Below, piece after piece: positions 2,970-17,514 of a stretch of 34,720 bases of DNA (positions are counted from its first letter, which is position 1; the number at the start of each line of letters is the position of its first letter). The stretch is from Bdellovibrionales bacterium (GTDB lineage Bacteria > Bdellovibrionota > FAC87 > UBA2466). The position numbers and the translations under genes are program-made. Location of the stretch: contig SXPJ01000096.1 in the NCBI GenBank assembly GCA_005776395.1, positions 1 to 34,720 of the forward strand, in the 5' to 3' direction. The notes below the pieces were generated by a model. That model had not been told where the DNA came from and made no database searches. It worked only from the letters and a program-made list of their open reading frames with translations.

Positions 2970-3014
2970 GACAGCGATTCTCGGTGAGCCACAGCGCAGA
3001 ATAAAAAGTGGAGT
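2970..3014 (+). repeat. 45-bp direct repeat, copy A, at the 3' edge of pyk
   Basis: Bases 2970-3014 match 4521-4565 in the same orientation at 38 of 45 positions without gaps. The shared core is TTCTCGGTGAGCCACAG. Copy A ends on the pyk stop codon and copy B lies just beyond the pyk 5' end, so the gene is bracketed by the pair. The ftsB-GHMP duplication at 7106 begins precisely where copy A ends on its ftsB side. Confidence 0.7.
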
Positions 3015-4520: not shown

Positions 4521-4755
4521 GACAGCAGTTCTCGGTGAGCCACAGTGCATATTAGAAAGCGGAGTCATTCAAGAATTTGGATATAAAAGTGGGGCTATCA
4601 GCTCCAAGGAAAGTCGCTGTACGCCCTACTTTCATATCTAAATTCTTGAATGAGTCCATCATAAAATTACCCCAATGGCACACCGAGACTTTGCAAAAAT
4701 ATTTTTCTAGCGCTCCTCAATTAGCCTCAAAATTTATTCACCGAGAACTGCTGTA
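4521..4755. repeat. MITE-like palindromic element between pyk and fliL
   Basis: A roughly 235-bp noncoding block is bounded by perfect 16-bp inverted repeats, CAGCAGTTCTCGGTGA at 4523-4538 and its complement at 4738-4753. Its left 45 bp equal copy B of the direct repeat flanking pyk. Inside, 30-bp arms at 4565-4594 and 4624-4653 are complementary at 27 of 30 positions with a 29-base loop; in a plus-strand transcript two of the three mismatches become G-U pairs. A further inverted piece of the terminal motif (12 of 13) is at 4676-4688. The right end abuts the fliL stop codon. No transposase is encoded and no convincing target duplication was seen. A 61-codon plus-strand ORF across it is probably an artefact of the palindrome. 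Confidence 0.6.
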
Positions 4756-5477: not shown

Positions 5478-6941
5478 GTGTCCAAAAAACATGCACTTTT
5501 CATCATAATTGCTCTTCTTACGGCCTCCGTTCATTCAGAAAAGCCAACTTCAAAGAAAAAAACCAACCCCAAGAAAGAAATTGAAGCTGTTGAGAAATCA
5601 ACAACGCCTGACTTAGATGCCCTACAAAAACAACCCAGGCCGGAAGAGAAACCCATTGAAGTTCTAACCACAGAAGAGGGGGGGGCTGAAAACACAACGG
5701 TTGAAACGCTAAGAAGATCCGATTTTATCTATCCCTCCAATTGGGGGCAGGCTGGATTATTTCGAGTTAGATCCGCGGAAAGTTTGCCTGAAGGGGCTTT
5801 AGCCTTTGGAATTGGAGGAGAATTTTATTCCATCTCTGATGCTCCTGACTTTGGATATGGAAATAGAAAAGCCAATTCGATTGCTGAGAGTTTATTTGTG
5901 GGCTATGCTCCAACCCCCAAATTAACTCTTTCAGTTCAGCGCAGAAACTCTTCAACCACCTTCGGAGAGCCCCAAAGACTCATCTCATCACTAGGGGATT
6001 TTAATTTTTCAGCTCTTTACTCATTTCAAGTGGGACCGTCGCTCACCCTATCCCCCATCGCAAATTTTTTAATTGCTTCAAATTTTAACGAATTGGCTCC
6101 CTCAGGAACCACTCTCAGTGGGGGCGTGGGAGTGGCTTCAACCTTTAGCCTCTTTCACTCTTCGAACTTACCTCTCTTTTTACATGCTAACTTGCTCTAT
6201 CACACACCTCAGTTAAGAACGACCAAGATAGGTCCCTTGGATCCTGAGGCCTATTTTAATTTTAGTCGGTACCACACAATGACGATTGGCCTTGGAGTTG
6301 AATTTAAAATTCATAATTTTATTCCTTTTATGGAATATGTGCATACAACTCATACCAATTCTATTTTGGGGTTTGGCAAATCTCCTTCTAAAATCACATT
6401 AGGGGCTCGAATAACCCCTCTTAACAACAAGAGCTTAGCTATTCTCCTGGGGGGAGATATTGGGGTTAATCGTTCGGTGACCTCAGGAGTTGCTTTCTCT
6501 CCCGGTTATCAAATTATCGGACAGGTTAGTTATACCTTTGGACTCCACACCACCGAACGAAAACATTACTTCACAACTAAAGATGTCAATATAGTCGATA
6601 GAAAGTTTGTTATAAAAAAACGGATCAACTTTAAAGTTGGGAAAGCAGATCTCCTGGCCTCAAGCTTCTCGCTTTTAGATGAAATTGCCCAAGTTATTCA
6701 GCAGAATGAGGTCAAGAAGCTGCTCATTGCTGGACACACAGACTCCACACATAATGAAGATTATAATTTGAGACTTTCTTTAGCTCGTGCCAACTCAGTT
6801 AAAAACTACTTAGTCTCTAAAGGTATCAGTGAAGATATTTTAACCACCCAAGGTTTCGGAAAACGCAAACCCATGGCATCTAACGCCACCGAAGCTGGTC
6901 GACGAGAAAATCGTCGTGTCGAGTTCTTTATTTTAGAATAG
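5478..6941 (+). CDS. OmpA-family outer-membrane protein with N-terminal signal peptide
   Basis: The 487-residue protein starts at GTG 5478; no in-frame ATG lies nearby. A signal peptide (about 1-20, ending ASVHS) is followed by a Lys/Glu/Pro-rich stretch to about residue 70. The central part (about 80-360) is rich in alternating hydrophobic strands such as SLTLSPIANFLIASNF, consistent with an outer-membrane beta barrel. The C-terminal OmpA domain (about 375-487) carries INFKVGKADLLASSFSLLDE, IAGHTDSTHNEDYNLRLSLA and GRRENRRVEFFI. This domain binds peptidoglycan and tethers the outer membrane. It is divergent from fliL. A hairpin terminator overlaps the stop codon. Substrate or adhesive role is unknown. 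Confidence 0.85.
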   Translation: MSKKHALFIIIALLTASVHSEKPTSKKKTNPKKEIEAVEKSTTPDLDALQKQPRPEEKPIEVLTTEEGGAENTTVETLRRSDFIYPSNWGQAGLFRVRSAESLPEGALAFGIGGEFYSISDAPDFGYGNRKANSIAESLFVGYAPTPKLTLSVQRRNSSTTFGEPQRLISSLGDFNFSALYSFQVGPSLTLSPIANFLIASNFNELAPSGTTLSGGVGVASTFSLFHSSNLPLFLHANLLYHTPQLRTTKIGPLDPEAYFNFSRYHTMTIGLGVEFKIHNFIPFMEYVHTTHTNSILGFGKSPSKITLGARITPLNNKSLAILLGGDIGVNRSVTSGVAFSPGYQIIGQVSYTFGLHTTERKHYFTTKDVNIVDRKFVIKKRINFKVGKADLLASSFSLLDEIAQVIQQNEVKKLLIAGHTDSTHNEDYNLRLSLARANSVKNYLVSKGISEDILTTQGFGKRKPMASNATEAGRRENRRVEFFILE

Positions 6942-6961
6942 GTCAAACCTATTCCATTTTT
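6936..6961 (+). terminator. Rho-independent terminator overlapping the OmpA-family stop codon
   Basis: A perfect 7-bp stem GAATAGG/CCTATTC (6936-6942 with 6948-6954), loop TCAAA, is followed by ATTTTT. The TAG stop (6939-6941) lies inside the left arm. Confidence 0.6.
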
Positions 6962-7121
6962 AGAAAATTATAGTGGGGCATTTGCGAACTGAGAGGAAAA
7001 AACAAGAAAATTTTTTACCAGATCTCGGCTTCTGATCCCCGTTTACCCTGATCCCGGCCTCCTGCCCCTCGACTCATTATCCCAATTCATGCGGTGGCCC
7101 TGAATCTTTTTTAGTCGACCA

Positions 7122-7150
7122 TTGAGCCCCTATTTAAATCCAGTTATAAT
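7122..7150 (+). promoter_or_regulatory. Duplicated ftsB promoter copy
   Basis: TTGAGC (7122-7127), a 17-base spacer and TATAAT (7145-7150) are identical to the parental ftsB promoter. The copy would drive transcription rightward through the pseudogenes and antisense into the 3' end of phoR. Confidence 0.6.
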
Positions 7151-7229
7151 TAAATATAGGTCAGAGTTGTCCTATCTGAATCTGTTTCAGTTTCCATTTT
7201 TAAATCACTAAAAATTAAAGTTTACACCC

Positions 7230-7385
7230 ATGCCACAACAGTATCGTCTCTTTGTGCGTTTGCCTCTTTTGCTTTCTATTGCTTTGCTTTGTTTTATGGG
7301 CACCTTTTCGAAGCGTGGATTATTAGATTGGCTTCGAATGGTTCAGCAAAATGAGAAATTAGGACAATTGGAAAAGAGTAGGTGA
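7230..7385 (+). pseudogene. Truncated ftsB copy (first 46 codons plus a 5-residue foreign tail)
   Basis: The ATG at 7230 begins a 51-codon frame whose first 46 residues equal the FtsB-like protein. It then breaks at the deletion junction (about 7366) and ends LEKSR followed by TGA. The membrane segment and the start of the coiled coil survive, but most of the coiled coil and the C-terminal tail are lost, so FtsB function is not expected. Because the promoter and leader are intact, a short membrane peptide could still be made. Confidence 0.75.
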
Positions 7386-7638
7386 ACTTTTAAGCGAAGA
7401 GTGGAGAACTAGAAAAGAGACTTCAGGAGTAAATACTGAGCGACTTGATCACATTATTAAATTTTTAACTTCACAAAAGATCAACGGTGTGAAGGTTTAT
7501 GGGGCTGCACAAGGGGGAAGTTTGTTGGTGCTAGTGGATCCTCAAGCCAAAAAACAGATTGCTGAAGCCTGTCAATCTCAAGGTATTCAAGTATTACCTG
7601 CGAATGTCTCTACTCAGGGTGTTCAAATCGAGTTTTGA
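7367..7638 (+). pseudogene. GHMP kinase 3' fragment (last ~90 codons)
   Basis: The frame from 7367 to TGA 7638 encodes the last ~90 residues of the GHMP kinase, including motif 3 and the C-terminal ATNVSTQGV-type end, with about three amino-acid changes. One replaces the Cys before Gly-Ala-Ala with Tyr. There is no start codon for this frame, and the upstream ftsB fragment is in another frame, so this is a remnant. Its 3' hairpin lies just beyond the phoR stop codon and might act as terminator for the Pho operon. Confidence 0.8.
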
Positions 7639-7661
7639 GTTTTTTTATTCAAAAGTACTTC

Positions 7662-9440
7662 CTATCCCGGAAAGCGACAGACAAACGTAGACCCCTTATT
7701 TACTTCACTTTCCACCCAAATTACGCCCTCATGTCTCTGCATGATGTGCTTTACAATGGCAAGGCCTAGCCCGGTTCCCCCTTGTTCCCGAGAACGAGCT
7801 TTGTCGACTCGATAGAATCTTTCAAATAATCTACTTTGGTGATCCACTGATATGCCAGGGCCAGAATCCTGCACCTTTAAGAACACATCCCGTCCTCCCT
7901 TTCGATCCCCTTCCCATTTTAAACAAATTGATTCTCCTTCCGGAGTGTACTTATTAGCATTATCCAAAAGATTTATTAAAATCTGCTCGAGTCGATTTGA
8001 ATCCGCCGCCACAATTGGAGCTTCAAAAAAGAGGTCCACCTTCTGCTTTTTATTTTCAAATCGCGAAGCCAACTGCTTTAGCACTCGTTCGGTAATTTCT
8101 TGAGTGCTTAATGACTCCTTTTGGATCACGACAGTGGACTCAATCGCTGAAAGGTCTAACAAGTCCTGCATTAGATTCATTAAGCGATTTGAATTTCTTT
8201 GTATAATTGCCAAAAAATCCTTTGAGGACTCATCTAACTTTCCCAGATTTAAATCTTCAATCATCGTTTCCGTATAGCCCTTAATGGCTGTGAGTGGAGT
8301 CCTTAATTCATGGGATACATTAGCCACAAAATCGATTCTCATTTGCTCGGCAGCTTTTAATTCCGTTACATCATGAAAGATTCCAAGTGCCCCATAGATT
8401 GAATTTCCAAGCCTTATTAAAGGCGAGACAGACAATGAAAAATACCGCTTGGGCTGATGGGGTGCCTCAAGTAAAAAAACTTTAGTATCACTCGCCCTTC
8501 CTTCTTTTAGGGCCGTTTTATATGCCTTTAATACTTCTGGATCTCGTAAAATCTCCCAAAGCTTAATATTTCTTCGAACGCCCCCGGAGCCAAATATGAC
8601 CTCGAATCGACTATTATAGAAAATCGGAACCTCTTCTTGATCGACGGCTAAGATAGCATCCGAAATAGAACCCATAATCGTGTCTAACTCACCTTGCTCC
8701 ATAGAAAGGCTCTGGACTGTTTTCTCAAGATTTTTCCCTAAATCGTCAATACTTGATTCTAATTCAGACCACTCTCCAAACGACTCTTCCTCAAGGTCTT
8801 CTTTAGTCAGAACTTTGGATTGATGATGAATTAAACCCTGAGTCTTTACGATCAATCTCCCAAGTGGGAAGACAAGTTTCTTTGCCAACCAAAGAGCAAC
8901 AACTAACAGGCTACTCATCAACACAGCTAAAAAGAGACCTAACGAAGTGTTAAAAACCCGAATGACAATTGATAAGCTGCTCAGTGAAATTCCGCCACGA
9001 ATAACAAGATGATAGGCTGGTACGGCTAATGTTTCATATACCATTTCTCCATCAATCGATGAAAAAAACTTTTCTTCCTTATTTTTTAAATTTTTAAGTG
9101 AGTTAATAATTTCCGGTCTTGAAAAGTATTCATTCATGAGATTGGGCTTTTCCCATGAATCACAGATTACTTTTCCATCTTCATTCGAAATGGTAAGCCG
9201 TGTACTACTGCCCGACTCAAACCCGATACAAAGAGCTGGACCTGATCGAAGGTCCAAGTCTCTGGAAAGCACCTGCACCATATCCTGGAGCTGACTTTGA
9301 ACCTGTTGAATAAAATATTTTTTAAAATAATAACGGGCTGCAAGCCCTGATGCAACAATGGCACAAATGACTAATGCTGCATGAATAAATGCAACTTGGT
9401 AAAAGGTTCGCCATGGGAAATGTTTTGACCTGGAATTCAC
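7662..9440 (-). CDS. phoR: PhoR-type phosphate sensor histidine kinase
   Basis: The 592-residue protein has membrane segments at about 13-38 and 163-187, enclosing a periplasmic sensor of about 125 residues. A HAMP-like linker and a PAS domain (about 250-360) follow. The HisKA phosphoacceptor is His377 in VSHELRTPLTAIKGY. The ATPase domain shows the N box LLDNANKYTP (491-500), DSGPGIS, ERFYRVD and GGTGLGLAIV. In the Pho system PhoR reads phosphate supply through PhoU and the Pst transporter and controls PhoB. E. coli PhoR has only a minimal periplasmic part; the large sensor here resembles Gram-positive PhoR, so an additional ligand is possible. It starts three bases after phoB and is last in the operon. 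Confidence 0.9.
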   Translation of the reverse strand: MNSRSKHFPWRTFYQVAFIHAALVICAIVASGLAARYYFKKYFIQQVQSQLQDMVQVLSRDLDLRSGPALCIGFESGSSTRLTISNEDGKVICDSWEKPNLMNEYFSRPEIINSLKNLKNKEEKFFSSIDGEMVYETLAVPAYHLVIRGGISLSSLSIVIRVFNTSLGLFLAVLMSSLLVVALWLAKKLVFPLGRLIVKTQGLIHHQSKVLTKEDLEEESFGEWSELESSIDDLGKNLEKTVQSLSMEQGELDTIMGSISDAILAVDQEEVPIFYNSRFEVIFGSGGVRRNIKLWEILRDPEVLKAYKTALKEGRASDTKVFLLEAPHQPKRYFSLSVSPLIRLGNSIYGALGIFHDVTELKAAEQMRIDFVANVSHELRTPLTAIKGYTETMIEDLNLGKLDESSKDFLAIIQRNSNRLMNLMQDLLDLSAIESTVVIQKESLSTQEITERVLKQLASRFENKKQKVDLFFEAPIVAADSNRLEQILINLLDNANKYTPEGESICLKWEGDRKGGRDVFLKVQDSGPGISVDHQSRLFERFYRVDKARSREQGGTGLGLAIVKHIMQRHEGVIWVESEVNKGSTFVCRFPG

Positions 9441-9443
9441 GAA

Positions 9444-10139
9444 TTAAAGGGCATCATTCATACGATAGCCCACTCCTCGAATTGTCTCTACTAAAGTTGA
9501 GCAATTTCCCAACTTCTTTCTCAACCCAAAGACATGGGTATCGATAGCACGATCGATAACAGCTACCCCTTCTCCCTGTACCAATTCTATCAGACGATCT
9601 CTAGTTAAAACTCTTCCTCTGTTTTTTATAAGAGCCCACAAAAGTTTAAACTCCGAAGGTGTCAAATTCAGATCTTGATTGTCACACTTCACAAAATGCT
9701 TTTCGATATCCATCAGCAATTCGCCCACTTGAATTTTAGACTCATTCGCTTCCTCATTATTGCGATTTGCTCGCCTCAGTAAGGCACGAACACGGGCCAG
9801 AAAGACTGGGATATCAAAGGGTTTAGTTATATAATCATCAGCTCCCATTTCTAGTCCCAATACAATATCCGTTGTTTGAGCTCTGGCGGTAACAATTAGG
9901 ATGGGGATCTTGCCCTTTGCAAAAGTCTTAGCCCTTACTTTTTTACAGACATCAAGTCCAGAAATTCCAGGTAACATCCAATCTAAAACCAGGAGCTGAT
10001 AGTTGTTTTTTTCAACTAACCTGACGGCGTCTTCTCCATTTTCCACCAATTCAATCTCAACCCCTTCTCGCTTAAGGTGAAGTGCCATTAATTCAGCAAT
10101 ATCCTTCTCATCTTCAACGATAAGAACCTTGCTTTTCAT
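9444..10139 (-). CDS. phoB: PhoB-type response regulator
   Basis: A 231-residue OmpR/PhoB-family regulator. The receiver domain (1-120) has the acidic pair Glu9-Asp10, phosphoacceptor Asp53 in VLDWMLPGISG, Thr84 and Lys106 in DDYITKPFD. The winged-helix DNA-binding domain (about 135-228) has LTPSEFKLLWALIKNRGRVL and ends with the typical VETIRGVGYRM. Phosphorylated PhoB binds Pho boxes made of two direct repeats spaced by 11 bp; a matching candidate precedes pstS at 14562-14583. Its start overlaps the phoU stop by four bases (ATGA), indicating translational coupling, and phoR follows directly, so the pair is produced with the transporter it controls. Confidence 0.93.
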   Translation of the reverse strand: MKSKVLIVEDEKDIAELMALHLKREGVEIELVENGEDAVRLVEKNNYQLLVLDWMLPGISGLDVCKKVRAKTFAKGKIPILIVTARAQTTDIVLGLEMGADDYITKPFDIPVFLARVRALLRRANRNNEEANESKIQVGELLMDIEKHFVKCDNQDLNLTPSEFKLLWALIKNRGRVLTRDRLIELVQGEGVAVIDRAIDTHVFGLRKKLGNCSTLVETIRGVGYRMNDAL

Positions 10140-10822
10140 TTTTTATTCTCCTGAAAACGTTGTCCAAGGGACTTATGTCTAATATCTTTTCCAGAAATTG
10201 AAAAAATTACATCTTCAGCAATATTAGTAGAGTGGTCTCCAATTCTTTCTAAATTCCGAGCAATTAGGATTACATTGAGGCCTTGTTCAATATCTTCTGA
10301 GTGTCCCTTCATCCATGCTAACGCATCCTTAAACACTTTGTCTTTTAGTCTATCTACTTTATCATCTGCCTCAAGCACCCCCCTCGCTAAATTCACATCA
10401 GACTTTACAAACGCATCAATCGCATTTTTAACCATTTGGCGAACATGGTCCGACATTAAAGAAAGATCCGAGGTATCAAAAAAAGGAGGGTGTTTTAAAT
10501 AATATTCTGAGTTTCTCGTAATGTTTACTGTTTGGTCTACCATTCTTTCGATATCTGTATTGGTTTTTATCACCGAAAGTATAAAGCGCAGGTCGAAGGC
10601 AAGGGGCTGTTGAGTTGCTAATAATTTTAAACAAGTGGCATCCACTTCTAAATGGGCGCGATTTACCTTATCCTCGATCTGATAGACGCTAGAAGCAATC
10701 GAAGCATCTTGATTTTTCCAAGCTTGAGTACAATAAACCACCGCCAGCTCTAAATACCCAGCCATCGTGATCAACTGTTCTTTTAGATCATTTAAGCCAA
10801 TATCTAACGTTCTTTGCATCAA
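10136..10822 (-). CDS. phoU: Phosphate transport regulator PhoU
   Basis: The 228-residue length fits PhoU, a protein of two similar three-helix bundles. Segments diagnostic of the family are visible in both halves: [20 protein letters not shown] with the following NITRNSEYY, and [20 protein letters not shown] near the C-terminus. The paired Asp/Glu clusters bind metal. PhoU links Pst transporter state to the PhoR kinase and represses the regulon when phosphate is plentiful. The gene overlaps pstB and phoB by four bases each. No truncation or missing motif is seen. Confidence 0.93.
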
Positions 10823-11574
10823 CCGAATTTCCCTGTAATGTACTCTTCTGTTTTCTTTTCTTTAGGGACTGTAAAAATTTGGGAAGTGTCACCAAATTCA
10901 ATTAATTCACCCAATAAAAAAAAGGCCGTCTTATCCGAAACCCTAGCCGCTTGTTGCATATTATGGGTAACTATAATGATTGTAATCTCCTTTTTTAATG
11001 AAAGGACAAGCTCTTCAATTTTGGCAGTTGAGATAGGATCCAAAGCGCTCGTGGGTTCATCCATGAGTAATACGGGAGGTTCTACGGCCAATGCTCTGGC
11101 AATACAAAGTCTCTGTTGCTGCCCTCCTGAAAGACTCGTTCCAGGTTGGTTTAGCTTGTCTTTTACCTCATCCCAAAGCGCTGCCAGTTTCAGACTCTTC
11201 TCTGCTACGTCACGCAGAATACTTTTTCTACCAATACCTGCCAAGCGAAGGCCCGCCACAACATTATCAAAAACTGAAAGCGCAGGAAATGGGTTTGGCT
11301 TTTGAAAAACCATTCCCACTTTTCTTCGAATTCTTACCGGATCTACTCCTGCCACATAGATATTTTCTCCCTGAAGAATCACTTGTCCAGATGCGCTTGC
11401 CCCAGGAGTTTCTTCATGCAATCGATTGAGGCAGCGAATAAAAGTCGATTTTCCACATCCCGAAGGACCAATCAAGGCTGTCACTTTATTGGAATCAAAA
11501 CTCAACTTAATATTATTTAGCGCTCGGTGTTCTCCGAACCAGGCATTTAAGTTATTCACTTTCAAAATTGACAT
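10819..11574 (-). CDS. pstB: Phosphate ABC transporter ATP-binding protein PstB
   Basis: The 251-residue ABC ATPase has Walker [10 protein letters not shown], the Q-loop in [12 protein letters not shown] (the KPNPFP form is specific to PstB), signature [17 protein letters not shown], Walker [13 protein letters not shown] and the switch histidine in [13 protein letters not shown]. Two copies would power the PstC-PstA channel on the cytoplasmic side. The gene lies four bases after pstA and overlaps phoU by four bases. Confidence 0.96.
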
Positions 11575-11578
11575 AATA

Positions 11579-12457
11579 TTAATTCAACCCCTTAACAGTA
11601 GGTTTGAAAATCACACGAGTTATTAAATTAATTAAAAATACAAAAACAATCAACGCATAGGCCCCTGCCCAAGCTTGACGATTCCAATCATCAAATGGAG
11701 AGATCGCATAGGTATAAATCTGAACTGGTAAGGAAGAAATGGGTTGGTCCAATCTAAATTGCAGAAATTGATTGTTCAAAGCTGTAAACAAAAGGGGGGC
11801 CGTCTCACCAGAAACTCTTGCGACTGCCAGCATGACTCCGGTAATAATAGCACTAAAAGAACCCCTTAGAACAATCCTCAGCGTTACTTTCCACCGTGGC
11901 AATCCAAGAGCCAACCCAGCCTCTCGAATATGGTTGGGAACCAGCTTTAATAATTCTTCAGTAATTCTAGCAATCGTGGGAATCATAATGATAGCCAGGG
12001 TTAATGAACCTGACAGTGCAGAAAATCGGTGCATAGGTTTTACTAAAATAACGTAAACAAAAAGTCCTAATATAATGGAAGGAACGGACGACAGCATATT
12101 TGCAGAAAATCGGACAGTGCTTGCAAATTTTCCTCTTCCATATTCAGAAAGATAGACACCAGTAAGTATTCCCCATGGGACTCCAATTAAACCTCCCAAT
12201 GAAACCATGATCAAAGAACCCACAATGGCGTTCAACATGCCACCGCCTACCTCTCCTACGGGTTTTGGCAAAGAGGTAAAAAATGGCCAATTAAAAGCGG
12301 GAAGTCCTTTGTATAGTACATAACCAAAGACCGCTCCAAGCGCCAAGACAACAATTAAAGTAGATACCACCATCAAGCTACAAAATAAAATATTCGTAGC
12401 CTTTCGTCGTTTATAATGAAGTCGGGTAAAATCTCCAAGCGGGTTCAAACTCATCAA
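11579..12457 (-). CDS. pstA: Phosphate ABC transporter permease PstA
   Basis: The 292-residue protein has about six hydrophobic segments. It also has the binding-protein-dependent transport loop [20 protein letters not shown], the EAA motif that docks on Pst[12 protein letters not shown]-like and [11 protein letters not shown] segments are typical of PstA. With PstC it forms the inner-membrane phosphate channel. It overlaps pstC by four bases (12454-12457), so the two permease subunits are translationally coupled. Length is normal. Confidence 0.95.
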
Positions 12458-13479
12458 AAGGTTCCAGTATGTTTTTTTGTTATCTTTGAAATAATTAAAT
12501 GCGCTATTGAATTAACTAAAAAGGTCACCATAAATAATAAGAGCCCAACAAAAGCCAATGTCGATAAATGAATCTCACTGGTTGCTTCTGTGTATTCATT
12601 TGCAATCACACTTGCCATAGTTTGCGCGGGCGCAAAGAGTGACGCTACAATTTCTGCTCTGTTGCCAATAACCATCGTTACAGCCATCGTTTCCCCTAAC
12701 GCTCGACCTAGACCCAAAATTATCGCTCCAAATACACCTGCTTTTGCGCTCTTAAGAACTGATAACCTCATCATCTCCCATCGGGTGGCCCCCAATGCTA
12801 AAGCCGCTTCCCGCTGAGAGTGCGGTATAGCGCGAAAGACTTCTCGAGAAATGGAAGAAATAGTAGGGGTGATCATCAAAGCCAAGATGAGTCCCGAGGT
12901 AAACATGCCCACACCATATGCCGGGCCTGTAAAAATAGGAAGAAATCCAAGGTTCTCAATAAGAAAGGGTTGAATACTACCCCTAAGAAGAGGAACGAGT
13001 ACAAAGATTCCCCAAAGCCCGTACACTACACTTGGAATAGCTGCCAACAGCTCTACCAAAAAGCCAACAATAGTTGCCAGTTTTTTAGGCGCTAATTCAT
13101 TAGTAAAGAGTGCAATTCCCAAGCTTAACGGTACCGCAAAAATTACCCCCAATAAGGAGGAAACCAATGTTCCATAAAGAACCGGTAGCACCCCATACAC
13201 ATCTCGTACTGGATCCCACAGGCTTCGAAAAATAATTTGCCAACCTGAAGCAGCAATAGCCTTCTCTGATGCCAAATAAAGAAATAATCCAATGGAGGCT
13301 AGAAGGATAACAGTTAAAAAAGAAGTAAACAAAAGCCCTAGAAAAAAGATTTTATCAGCAAGATGCACATCGCGCTTTAATGTAAAGTTGCGAATGAGTT
13401 TAGTTGCTTTTTTTGTCGAATTTATCAGTGTTCCAGAACTCAAGGATCTAACGTCTCCTATCGGAACGCTTGGACTCAT
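12454..13479 (-). CDS. pstC: Phosphate ABC transporter permease PstC
   Basis: The 341-residue permease has a basic cytoplasmic N-terminus of about 40 residues, then around six membrane segments. Family markers are LAAIPSVVYGLWGIFVLVP, the EAA loop REAALALGATRWEMMRLSVL and GRALGETMAVTMVIGN. PstC pairs with PstA. The gene starts ten bases after pstS ends and overlaps pstA by four bases. The N-terminal extension is slightly long but within family range. Confidence 0.95.
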   Translation of the reverse strand: MSPSVPIGDVRSLSSGTLINSTKKATKLIRNFTLKRDVHLADKIFFLGLLFTSFLTVILLASIGLFLYLASEKAIAASGWQIIFRSLWDPVRDVYGVLPVLYGTLVSSLLGVIFAVPLSLGIALFTNELAPKKLATIVGFLVELLAAIPSVVYGLWGIFVLVPLLRGSIQPFLIENLGFLPIFTGPAYGVGMFTSGLILALMITPTISSISREVFRAIPHSQREAALALGATRWEMMRLSVLKSAKAGVFGAIILGLGRALGETMAVTMVIGNRAEIVASLFAPAQTMASVIANEYTEATSEIHLSTLAFVGLLLFMVTFLVNSIAHLIISKITKKHTGTF

Positions 13480-13489
13480 TTAACTCCTA

Positions 13490-14509
13490 TTAGCCTTTTT
13501 GTTTGCCAAACGTAAGAGTTTTAATCTTAGCTTCAATTTTAGCTACAAGCGACTTTGGAAGTGGAGAATACTTTAACTCACTAGCGAGCTTCTGCCCATC
13601 CTTAATTGCCCAATTTAAAAACTTAACGAGCTGACCGCCCTTTTCGGCGTCTGGAGTATCCCTCCATACCAAGAGATAGGTGAAACTTGATAAGGGATAA
13701 GCCCCTGGGCCTTCGGCATTAGTAATAGAAATCCTAAAGTCTTCCGGCATGGCCTTAATGGATGCAGTTGCGGCGGATGTAACAGAAGCTAAAGAAGGGG
13801 TAACAAACTTTCCGGTTTTGTTTTTTAGGTTTGCGTAACTTAGGTTATTGAATTCTGCATAAACAAACTCCACATAACCAATACTGCCGGGCGTTTGTTT
13901 AACAAGTCCGGCAACACCCTCATTTCCTTTGCCGCCAAGTCCTACAGGCCAATTCACTGCTGTTCCCTGACCCACCTTCTCTTTCCATGCTGGACTTACT
14001 TTTGAGAGATAATCGGTAAATACAGCAGAGGTCCCACTTCCATCTGACCGATGAACGACAATAATATCGCCTGTCAATTTCAATTCTGGGTTTAATTTAG
14101 TGAGACGAGGATCTTCCCATTTTTTAATCTCCCCCAAAAATATTGCCGAAAGAGCCTCAGGGGTTAACTTTAAACCAGATTGAACTCCAGAAATATTGTA
14201 AACTGCGACCACCGCTCCCAGAACGGTAGGAATGTGCACGACAGGAGCCCCTGCTTTTTGCATTTGTTCATCTGTCATTGGAGCATCTGAGGCACCAAAA
14301 TCCACTGTCTTATCAGAAAACTGACGAATTCCGCCGCCACTTCCTATGGATTGGTAGTTAATTTGAACCTCAGAATTTATCTTTTGGTATTCAGAAAACC
14401 ATTTTGAATAAAGTGGAAATGGAAAAGTTGCACCCGCTCCATTAATCAGCGTAGCTGCAAATGAAATCTGGGTACAGAGACTTAAAAGAATCAAACTAAA
14501 CAGCTTCAT
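13490..14509 (-). CDS. pstS: Periplasmic phosphate-binding protein PstS
   Basis: The 339-residue protein has a Sec signal peptide (about 1-18, ending QISFA) followed by TLINGAGATFPFPLYSKW, the standard PstS N-terminus. Phosphate-binding segments are GSGGGIRQFSDKTVDFGASD and HRSDGSGTSAVFTDYL. It captures phosphate in the periplasm and delivers it to PstCA. The ATG at 14509 has an AAGGAG about six bases upstream, the clearest ribosome site in the window. It is first in the pst-pho operon, behind a candidate Pho box and a -10 element. The signal peptide ends in Ala, with no lipobox cysteine. Confidence 0.96.
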   Translation of the reverse strand: MKLFSLILLSLCTQISFAATLINGAGATFPFPLYSKWFSEYQKINSEVQINYQSIGSGGGIRQFSDKTVDFGASDAPMTDEQMQKAGAPVVHIPTVLGAVVAVYNISGVQSGLKLTPEALSAIFLGEIKKWEDPRLTKLNPELKLTGDIIVVHRSDGSGTSAVFTDYLSKVSPAWKEKVGQGTAVNWPVGLGGKGNEGVAGLVKQTPGSIGYVEFVYAEFNNLSYANLKNKTGKFVTPSLASVTSAATASIKAMPEDFRISITNAEGPGAYPLSSFTYLLVWRDTPDAEKGGQLVKFLNWAIKDGQKLASELKYSPLPKSLVAKIEAKIKTLTFGKQKG

Positions 14510-14540
14510 GTCAACTCCTTGGCAAAATAAATGGCCCCTA

Positions 14541-14583
14541 TTTATAAGTGTTTTTTGGCCTCTTTTTGTTAGAATTTGGTTAG
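14541..14583 (-). promoter_or_regulatory. Candidate Pho box and -10 element of the pst-pho operon
   Basis: On the minus strand CTAACCA (14577-14583) and CTAACAA (14566-14572) begin exactly 11 bases apart with an AATT spacer and an A-rich tail. This is the geometry of PhoB/PhoP direct repeats, which replace a -35 element. A TATAAA (14541-14546) follows about 15 bases downstream, and the pstS ATG is 32 bases further. The repeat sequence resembles the TTAACA repeats known for Bacillus PhoP as much as E. coli CTGTCAT. Assignment rests on spacing and position. Confidence 0.5.
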
Positions 14584-14826
14584 GATATAATCCTCACCCC
14601 TCATCAAACCTTGTTAATACCTTGCTACTGGGGGGAATTCCGAACTGATGGTGTGCTTCAATTATCTTTGAATAGATATCTGCAGAGGCTCTTTTTTTTC
14701 GATGCAATGTAGAATGAATGTGAAAGTCTCCCCTGTACATTTACTTTAAAGTTAATTGCCTAAGGTTACGCTAAGATTTTTATTCTGTTAGTGTTTCGTT
14801 AAGAGGATATCGGCACAAATGGCAGC

Positions 14827-15030
14827 CATTCGTAGGTAACACTTGAATACCTTGAGATTGACAAGCTTCAGCAATCTGTTTTTTGACTTGAGGATCCAAA
14901 AGTTCTTCATGAAGCCTTTCTGCAATGTCGTGAATCACTTTGAGCACCGAACGAACTTTTTGATTCCCCACGCTACGTAAGAAGCCTCTACCCAGGGTGT
15001 TCAAATCGAATTTTGAGTTTTTTCATTCAA
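14827..15030. pseudogene. Scrambled GHMP kinase remnant (internal deletion plus local inversion)
   Basis: Bases 14827-14970 read on the minus strand as a diverged GHMP kinase fragment: residues about 235-259 (QKVRSVLKVIHDIAERLHEE) joined to residues about 320-340 (KKQIAEACQSQGIQVLP). About 180 bp are lost between two CTTGAGG repeats of the parent. Bases 14986-15030 match the last ~45 bases of the gene in the opposite, plus orientation. The two pieces meet at neighbouring points of the parental sequence (1529 and about 1527). Hence turning 14827-14985 around in place would restore one plus-strand remnant. Nothing functional is expected; the 74-codon minus-strand ORF over it is not a gene. Confidence 0.7.
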
Positions 15031-15088
15031 GAGAAATGGGAAGTAATCCCAACTCGACTTTTGTAAGATCGAGGCCTATTTTTAGAAG

Positions 15089-15556
15089 ATGATAAATGAA
15101 CTCTGCCTCCAAGAAAAATATGCCCCTCACAACACCTGCTTTGGCTGTGGCCCCTCTAATGTCAAAGGGCTTAAGATTAGAAGCTTTCCGAAAGGAGATG
15201 AGGTCGTTGCTGAATGGACACCTGAAGCTCACCATGAAGCTTTTCCTGGCGTATTAAATGGCGGAATTATCGGCGCTCTATTGGATTGCCACTCCAACTG
15301 GACCTCGGCTTGGGCTTTAATGGAAAAAAATAAAGAGGCGATCCCCCCTTGCACTGTCACAGCTGACTATGCCATTAAACTTCTTCGTCCTACTCCGTCC
15401 AATACACAAATTTTTCTATCAGCTAAAGTAGCTGAACTTAAAGAGGACCGAGCTGTCATTGAAGCAATTCTTATGGCCAATGGTAAAACCTGTGCTACTT
15501 GCCGCGGAACTTTCGTTGCAGTCAAACCCGGTCATCCCGCTTACCACCGTTGGTAG
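15089..15556 (+). CDS. Hot-dog fold thioesterase (PaaI-like family)
   Basis: The 155-residue single-domain protein has the layout of hot-dog thioesterases that hydrolyse acyl-CoA-type thioesters. An N-terminal CFGCGPSNVKGLKIRSF segment is followed by FPGVLNGGIIGALLDCHSNW, which lies on the hot-dog helix and carries the usual substrate-cleft residues. Then come TADYAIKLLRPTP and a strand pair ending in GTFVAVKPGHPAYH. The CFGCG start occurs in a PaaI-like subgroup. The physiological substrate cannot be deduced. The gene stands alone, 95 bases ahead of the next plus-strand gene and just after the GHMP kinase remnant. No strong ribosome site precedes the ATG. Confidence 0.8.
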   Translation: MINELCLQEKYAPHNTCFGCGPSNVKGLKIRSFPKGDEVVAEWTPEAHHEAFPGVLNGGIIGALLDCHSNWTSAWALMEKNKEAIPPCTVTADYAIKLLRPTPSNTQIFLSAKVAELKEDRAVIEAILMANGKTCATCRGTFVAVKPGHPAYHRW

Positions 15557-15651: not shown

Positions 15652-17514
15652 GTGGAAAAATCGGGCTTAAAAAAAACATACAAGCTCTCCAAGGAAAACA
15701 AACCTTTAGAAGACTCAATCGCCTCTAAGCTGCCAAATTGGATACCTAATCTATTGCTGATTTGCCTTATCCTGATGTTGGGATACCTTCATTTTCCCAC
15801 AGGGTTCAATCTCCAACGCAAACTTATAGATTATGATGACCTAGAAGTGGTCGCAAAAATGATGAATCTTGATTTGAGCAGCTATTTCAATGAATGGCTA
15901 CCCAATCGTATACACTACGCTTTTCCTGTAAGAGATATCACCATTTTTTTTGATAAGTGGCTCTCCCCTCAAACTGAAGGGCAATTTTGGATCAGTAATT
16001 TTGTGCTCTTCTCGCTCTGTATTTTTCTGTTTTCTCTCATTCTCAAGATGATCTTTTCTAACTATGGGCCTCTTAACTTAGCTCTTCTCACGCTTTATGC
16101 GCTTCATCCCATCCAAACTGAAGTAGTTCAATGGATCACTTGTCGGAAATATCTTGTGGGTCTTCCCCCCATTCTTCTAGGAACTTGGATGGTTATCCGA
16201 TGGAAGGGGCAGGAACTAACCCCACGGCGTATTGCGGGGCTCACTGTAGTGTGGCTACTATCACTAGCCTCTTATCCGACCGCTGCTTTTTGGATACTTT
16301 GGGCCCTCTTTTTTATTCAGCGAAAAAACCCTCTTAAAAATAGATTACCCTTGTATGTTCTCTTTTTTGCAATCACTGCTCTGTATCTTTTTTTAGTAGG
16401 CCATGGAACTCTCGAAGTAAACTCAAGCTTAACCAACATTATTTCTAACTACAAAAAGAGTTTTCATTTTGGCTATAACGCTTTGGGGAGAGGGTTTTTT
16501 AACCTTGTTTTACCCTTTTGGACATTTTCTTATTACCGTGAAAATCATCCCTTCACTTTCATCGGATTAACTCTCTTAGTAGTTTTTCTTCTTTTTATTA
16601 AAACGGTAAGTCACCGAGTCTTGTCATTGAGTTACGAATCAAATTGTCGCCAACATCTCATTGAGGCAGGAGTATGGTTATTGGGGGGAGTGAGTTTTTT
16701 GATTCCAATCTCTAATACCATTTTGGGATTTTTTGATTTTATGCTTGCCGACCGGCACCTCTTTTTTTCAATGCCGTTTTTTATTATTGCGACAGGTTAT
16801 TTTTTTCTCTTTTTAAAAGAACTATTCGAATTTAATAAACCTGAATGGAAAATTGGAGTGCCGGTCATTTTTACAATCTGGATTGGTATCAGCCTATTCT
16901 CGATTGCAAGTAAAGTTCCGCTTTGGAAAGACGACTTCGAACTCATGAAAAATTGTGCAATCAAAGAGGGTTCTGCCCGATGTATGTCACAAACCGTTCG
17001 TCGTCGTTTTTTCAAGAGCGACTGTGCGAGTATAAACGACACGCTCTTGCAAGCGGCTGATTTTTACAAGCAAAAGCCTCCCTTTTCCTTTGAGTTCAGT
17101 TCAGAGATCCCTTTCTATCACGCTGCTTGTATCTCATTAAACAGTAGTATTCCTCGTGAAAAGAAAGAGGCCATTATAGAATCTCTCGAAAGATTCTATG
17201 ATTCATCTCCAGAAATCATTTTTGGGTTGGTTCTCTCGAGCCTTGAAAATGGCAATATGAGTAGAGCCATGGATTTAGCTTCTCAATATTATTTAGGCGA
17301 CCTCTCACTGGGACCAATTTCAGCCACTAGAACTCTACAGGCTGTTTATGCCGGTCAACTCACTGTTCTTTGTCAGCTTAATCCTTCTCCTCTCTGCTCC
17401 TCCCGACTGAATCATTTTTTATTACTTCATCCAGAAGCCATTATTAACTCCGGAGCCGGTTCATGGGGGCGGGAGGCTACCCTTATTATGGCCAAGCGTG
17501 GCGGGCTTAAATAG
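15652..17514 (+). CDS. TMTC-like integral membrane glycosyltransferase (GT-C fold)
   Basis: The 620-residue product starts at GTG 15652; the overlapping ATG at 15650 is in another frame and stops at once. About ten hydrophobic segments follow a cytoplasmic N-terminus. The first loop carries an acidic motif (YDDLEVVAKM). Later, ALHPIQTEVVQWITCRKYLV matches the LHPxHTExVxWISxR signature of TMTC-type O-mannosyltransferases, which transfer mannose from a polyprenyl-phosphate donor. The C-terminal ~170 residues are soluble and helical with several cysteines, replacing the usual TPR array. Donor and acceptor are unknown. Two GT-C enzymes occur in this window (see 26502). Confidence 0.6.
   Translation: MEKSGLKKTYKLSKENKPLEDSIASKLPNWIPNLLLICLILMLGYLHFPTGFNLQRKLIDYDDLEVVAKMMNLDLSSYFNEWLPNRIHYAFPVRDITIFFDKWLSPQTEGQFWISNFVLFSLCIFLFSLILKMIFSNYGPLNLALLTLYALHPIQTEVVQWITCRKYLVGLPPILLGTWMVIRWKGQELTPRRIAGLTVVWLLSLASYPTAAFWILWALFFIQRKNPLKNRLPLYVLFFAITALYLFLVGHGTLEVNSSLTNIISNYKKSFHFGYNALGRGFFNLVLPFWTFSYYRENHPFTFIGLTLLVVFLLFIKTVSHRVLSLSYESNCRQHLIEAGVWLLGGVSFLIPISNTILGFFDFMLADRHLFFSMPFFIIATGYFFLFLKELFEFNKPEWKIGVPVIFTIWIGISLFSIASKVPLWKDDFELMKNCAIKEGSARCMSQTVRRRFFKSDCASINDTLLQAADFYKQKPPFSFEFSSEIPFYHAACISLNSSIPREKKEAIIESLERFYDSSPEIIFGLVLSSLENGNMSRAMDLASQYYLGDLSLGPISATRTLQAVYAGQLTVLCQLNPSPLCSSRLNHFLLLHPEAIINSGAGSWGREATLIMAKRGGLK

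Follow-up and report, generated by a model that had tools for sequence, protein, structure and literature searches.

An apparent remnant of a GHMP kinase gene carrying a short local inversion beside a pst-pho operon in a Bdellovibrionales genome

The window, by which we mean the whole 34,720-nt stretch of DNA analyzed here, is one contig (C93) of a draft Bdellovibrionales genome (GCA_005776395.1; 106 contigs, 98% complete). Its minus strand carries an intact gene for a 350-residue GHMP kinase (ghmp, 1497-2549; PF00288 at 2.1e-10 and PF08544 at 2.1e-6), an intact divIC-like septum formation initiator gene recognized by family scan (2565-2846) and a seven-gene pst-pho operon comprising pstS, pstC, pstA, pstB, phoU, phoB and phoR (7662-14509). 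The block ompA-fliL-pyk-divIC-ghmp, with the intact kinase gene, is kept in the four congeners that have contigs long enough. In three congeners inspected further along (G001, G004 and G005), the genes that come after ghmp are an oxidase-like gene, a DUF47/PhoU-like gene and a Pit transporter (PF01384), the first two labeled by sequence reading without a family search; in G002 a helicase-like gene, again so labeled by sequence reading, takes that place. In the window, positions 1-1480 downstream of ghmp hold an unrelated open reading frame (321-1340) in place of the three congener genes, and a search run without a positive control found no relative of the oxidase-like protein in this genome. 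The ghmp gene of G003 (L047 1762-2804) reads as two overlapping frames covering residues 1-285 and 285-348, reflecting either a frameshift or an assembly error. Upstream of pstS, two similar 22-nt stretches (14564-14585 and 14783-14804; 77%) bear some resemblance to Pho boxes. Further on, a 620-aa open reading frame without a Pfam match (15652-17514) separates a thioesterase-like gene (15089) from an AP_endonuc_2 gene (17754); in four congeners these two genes are immediate neighbors. Two stretches of ghmp-like sequence, designated r2 and r3, flank the operon.

By homology, the sequence at 14824-15023, between pstS and the gene at 15089, is a ghmp remnant, r3, derived from the 3' end of that gene. 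Using blastn within the window and taking the parent region as the query, we observed two minus-strand pieces, 14824-14898 (70/75 identical, E 5e-27) and 14885-14969 (69/85, E 8e-18), and one plus-strand piece, 14986-15023 (37/38, E 2e-12). As in a gene remnant, r3 combines clear homology to a parent (81-97% identity to pieces of 1497-2549) with loss of most of the coding region, keeping 171 aligned coding bases of the parent's 1050. The initial annotation had proposed that the minus- and plus-strand pieces meet at adjacent points of the parent and that flipping 14827-14985 in place recreates a single plus-strand remnant that aligns continuously. The pieces do abut, meeting at positions 1335 and 1334 of the parent query, and a flip does restore one continuous plus-strand remnant; it is the exact end that shifts, given that 14827-14985 aligns to the parent over 105 of 111 columns with one gap. 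When we scanned 21 x 24 pairs of breakpoints, the best ungapped score of 104/111 was tied among five flips, with starts at 14824-14828 and start and end summing to 29811. Flipping 14827-14984 gave this gapless alignment and ran in frame to the parent stop codon (reading ...QVLPTNASTQGVQIEF, then stop / ...KKQIAEACQSQGIQVLPTNASTQGVQIEF). The inverted segment is accordingly given as the 158 bp at 14827-14984 (minus strand), with 5 nt of uncertainty at the breakpoints (starts 14824-14828, ends 14983-14987), followed by an uninverted plus-strand tail placed by blastn at 14985-15023, which comprises the last ghmp codons, the stop codon and a T-rich tail. Reversal in place thus restores collinearity with the parent, as it does for a microinversion, and these observations support the reading that r3 would once have been a single remnant on the plus strand, which a local inversion then broke up.

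The same remnant carries the scar of a deletion (14885-14898, minus strand; blastn and alignment). Predicted at about 180 bp between CTTGAGG repeats, the deletion proved to span 183 bp, exactly 61 codons and in frame, between two CCTCAAG repeats (CTTGAGG on the other strand). Before the scar, 16 of 84 sites depart from the parent (81% identical), against 5 of 87 after it (94% identical), a contrast with a Fisher p of 0.0099 in one nominal test. Compared with the parent, none of congeners G001, G002, G004 and G005 showed the same contrast (4/4 absent, p 0.41-0.87); G003, in which ghmp is split in the assembly, was left out. At the 16 differing sites of the first part, the congener majority state is found in r3 at 4, in the parent at 6 and in neither at 3, with the congeners disagreeing among themselves at 3. 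Such unequal halves are not predicted by one copy simply decaying, and gene conversion or two sources are possible. Although the inequality would also suit two independent ghmp fragments that landed adjacent in opposite orientations, we consider such an origin quite improbable: the junction of the pieces is exact to the base and keeps the frame, random pieces of these lengths abut within 2 nt with a simulated probability of 0.004, and the step in divergence sits at the deletion scar rather than at the inversion edge. An assembly or binning artefact might be suspected from the fragmented draft, of which the window is one contig, and from gene-end copies lying within 14 kb of one another, but this too is unlikely to account for the inverted arrangement. 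The flip is frame-exact and, with 21 of 171 aligned coding sites in r3 and 8 sites in r2 differing from the parent, the remnants are not the same reads misjoined.

To characterize the breakpoints, we aligned 50 nt from each edge, one of them reversed, and compared the local alignment scores with up to 2000 random pairs from the same region under two scoring schemes. No inverted repeat above background was found at the r3 breakpoints, with 28% and 45% of random pairs scoring as high; when the edges are read base by base, complementarity in register extends to 3 of 4 positions, 2 of them contiguous. Because only these 3 of 4 bases are complementary, a homology-poor mechanism is favored, and the flip was most likely produced by template switching or by break repair that needed hardly any homology, rather than by a recombinase. 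A site-specific invertase that flips the segment as a switch might be imagined for so compact a segment, with pstS and 15089 diverging on either side of it; it is exceedingly improbable, since the edges lack the bounding inverted repeat above background, and a Pfam scan found no recombinase among the 27 window proteins, three of which had no family at E 0.001. From the observed homology, abutting ends, frame-restoring flip and deletion repeats, we infer both an order of events and a flip mechanism. The 3' end of ghmp would have been partially copied onto the plus strand next to the pst-pho operon, giving an r3 that decayed; r3 would have lost 61 codons through slippage or recombination between the two 7-bp direct repeats; and about 158 bp would have flipped in place through template switching at the fork or break repair almost free of homology.

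We searched for further copies in this genome and its relatives. A DNA search with the parent gene returned no ghmp fragments in this genome outside the window, and the whole spacer between pstS and 15089, used as a genome query, matched only pieces within the window. Each of the five congeners gave one ghmp DNA match, the intact gene, and none (0/5) carries r3 at all. Protein searches added distant paralogues, comprising an intact GHMP kinase on C38 in this genome (28%) and others in the family. The initial annotation had suggested looking for additional fragments and for the uninverted state in relatives; these DNA searches found neither, and the direction of the inversion is read from the restored frame and the gapless alignment to the parent gene.

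The second remnant, r2, spans 7105-7661 and is a divIC-ghmp copy that lacks 941 bp of the parent sequence. Its first part (7105-7366, plus strand) comprises the pyk-divIC spacer and the divIC start and matches 2710-2971, taken in reverse complement, at 98.5% identity; its second part (7367-7661, plus strand) is the ghmp 3' end, joined to divIC after the 941-bp loss and about 95% identical to the parent, with 8 sites differing. The BLAST match itself runs from 7367 to 7669 against 1466-1768 (95%) and passes over the phoR stop codon (7662-7664), where its final bases may match by chance. A sister remnant previously placed at 7367-7638 thus exists in the plus orientation claimed for it, with its extent now widened to include the divIC start and the spacer upstream. 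The ghmp end is common to r2 and flipped r3, which differ there at 6 of 87 coding sites and are unequal in extent; weaker similarity to r2 continues along the r3 tail to 15033. With r2 some 95-98% identical to the parent versus 81% and 94% for the two halves of r3, the remnants apparently differ in age; r3 looks the older, and its end may have been converted later or its history may have been uneven.

Closer inspection of the r2 boundary revealed that its start at 7105 corresponds to parent position 2971, the first base outside a 42-bp MITE end fragment (2972-3013, minus strand) that borders the r2-like sequence immediately beyond its left edge. The remnant r2 opens with TCTTTTTTA, the 9 bases that adjoin this fragment on its outer side. 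A full copy of the element occupies the fliL-pyk spacer (4523-4753, minus strand), with 9-bp flanks TCAATAATA / TCAATAGTA that agree at 8 of 9 positions. The element is about 230 bp long, with terminal repeats of 16-17 nt (CAGCAGTTCTCGGTGA), an internal imperfect palindrome and 9-bp target duplications. It occupies at least 40 places in this genome (76 match rows, merged by eye), a lower bound in that 40 of 79 candidates were scored, and in 11/11 full copies inspected the 9-bp flanks differed at no more than one position. By its terminal inverted repeats, constant-length target duplications and many copies, the element at 4523-4753 is a MITE; no copies were found in the congener and family stretches searched by BLAST. 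On C38 (L033, G000:C38), another full copy is located some 330 bp away from the distant GHMP kinase paralogue. Judging from the one coincidence of boundaries, r2 was likeliest begun by a break at the MITE outer edge, and it would represent a younger divIC-ghmp copy carrying an internal deletion.

As far as the sequences go, r2 and r3 probably have no function at present. One could argue that the copies were kept since the ghmp tail ends transcripts, given that the stop codon and the TTTTGAG-T-run tail persist in all three copies and that a short stem can be seen by eye ahead of the T run. Folding of these tails was no better than that of shuffled sequences (z -0.19, -0.49 and +0.81), and a scan of 6900-7700 and 14500-15100 marked no terminator at r2 or r3, leaving such reuse very improbable. 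Most likely r3 is ordinary rearrangement debris, namely a gene remnant that underwent a short homology-poor inversion.

The pst-pho operon lies between the two plus-oriented remnants, as had been claimed from the letters alone. The accompanying suggestion of repeated seeding near the operon ends is sustained only in part: two copies, apparently of different age, are present, and we found no evidence of a process aimed at the operon ends. PstS was absent from all five congeners (four of which reach 90% completeness or more) and matched in 8/8 family genomes of other genera and in 0/1 genome from another family of the order. The seven-gene order is kept in all eight of those other-genus genomes, with pstS partial in G010. 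The r2/r3 bracket is therefore a mark of the edges of something missing from the sampled congeners. In a tree of ghmp, divIC and pyk from 13 genomes (G010 lacks these genes in the stretches used, and G008 and G006 are 17% and 46% filled), this genome nested within its genus beside G001 (85/95), with G002 and G003 branching first (85/97); adding four genes with fewer genomes weakened the pairing with G001 (74/83). Pure descent of the operon needs three losses on this topology, versus one loss and one gain in the alternative. A tree of the seven pst-pho proteins from 9 genomes placed the operon sister to that of genus g7 (100/100), a grouping that received 63/80 with PstS only.

These observations bear on whether r2 and r3 could be the footprint of the operon's arrival, in which pst-pho came in on a segment that also bore a ghmp 3' end, and recombination of this segment at a native ghmp copy left the operon between direct repeats of the ghmp end. 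This scenario, which is compatible with the r3 flip itself, draws on the distribution of PstS, on the nested position of the genome with its smaller count of events, and on the fact that r2 and pre-flip r3 are direct repeats, with the end of r2 adjoining the phoR stop codon. We nevertheless regard it as doubtful, because the sister placement with g7 could also come from vertical descent, the GC and GC3 of pst-pho match those of its neighbors with no foreign composition, and r2 and r3 are unlike in age and extent. Nor are three losses implausible, a Pit transporter being present in all six genus members; none was found in g7 (3/3). Like a genomic island, the segment is absent from close relatives, judged by PstS only, but no integrase or mobility gene was found among the 27 window proteins scanned. 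No tRNAs or RNA families, sought as targets, were found in the window, and synteny did not reveal an ancestral site for pst-pho. A plsY-like gene, so labeled by sequence reading, is the immediate upstream neighbor of the 15089 homologue in G001 and is two open reading frames further away in G003; in this genome C106 carries Pit and C41 the plsY-like gene, indicating that the region has been rearranged. The plsY-like frame on C41 (L085, G000:C41:23944-24591) contains one internal TAG.

Collectively, we put the probability at roughly three in four that r3 is a decayed copy of the ghmp 3' end, deleted and then flipped, that r2 is a younger divIC-ghmp copy arising from a break at a MITE edge, and that neither is functional now. 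On this account, r3 offers a clear, frame-checkable bacterial case of a short homology-poor inversion, and together the remnants record small, well-preserved rearrangements around an operon absent from the sampled congeners. The interesting parts, which we put forward as hypotheses, are the bracketing of the operon and the start of r2 at a MITE edge. Hypothetically, the remnants took part in bringing pst-pho here; if the bracketing is an arrival footprint, MITE breakage, gene-end copies and operon gain would be linked. The fullest version, in which a lineage-specific pst-pho operon was inserted or moved here by recombination at native copies of the 3' end of ghmp, a housekeeping gene, these copies themselves having been begun by MITE-edge breaks, is a speculation to which we give only a slim chance; were it true, MITE excision breaks would give rise to gene-end copies, which would later provide the homology by which operons are taken up.

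Our literature searches turned up no description of this case, and its components can be set beside known systems. The human-chimpanzee microinversions of PMC8755829 are, like that of r3, short in-place inversions with exact edges, and template switching or microhomology-mediated break repair are discussed as mechanisms. The microinversions described there measure 17-33 nt and each has flanking inverted repeats of at least 3 nt, whereas the r3 inversion is about 158 bp, bacterial and has 3 of 4 complementary edge bases. Bacterial pseudogenes and gene remnants, such as those of PMC2916853, resemble r3 in being partial, decaying copies of a still-intact gene; unlike those remnants, r3 kept its frame through a deletion and carries a local inversion. 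As for the element at the r2 boundary, MITEAba12 (PMC6382973) shares with the element at 4523-4753 terminal inverted repeats of about 16 nt, 9-bp duplications and the lack of a coding region. MITEAba12 is 113 bp long and the element described here is 230 bp and present at no fewer than 40 places, a distinction drawn from description rather than from sequence.
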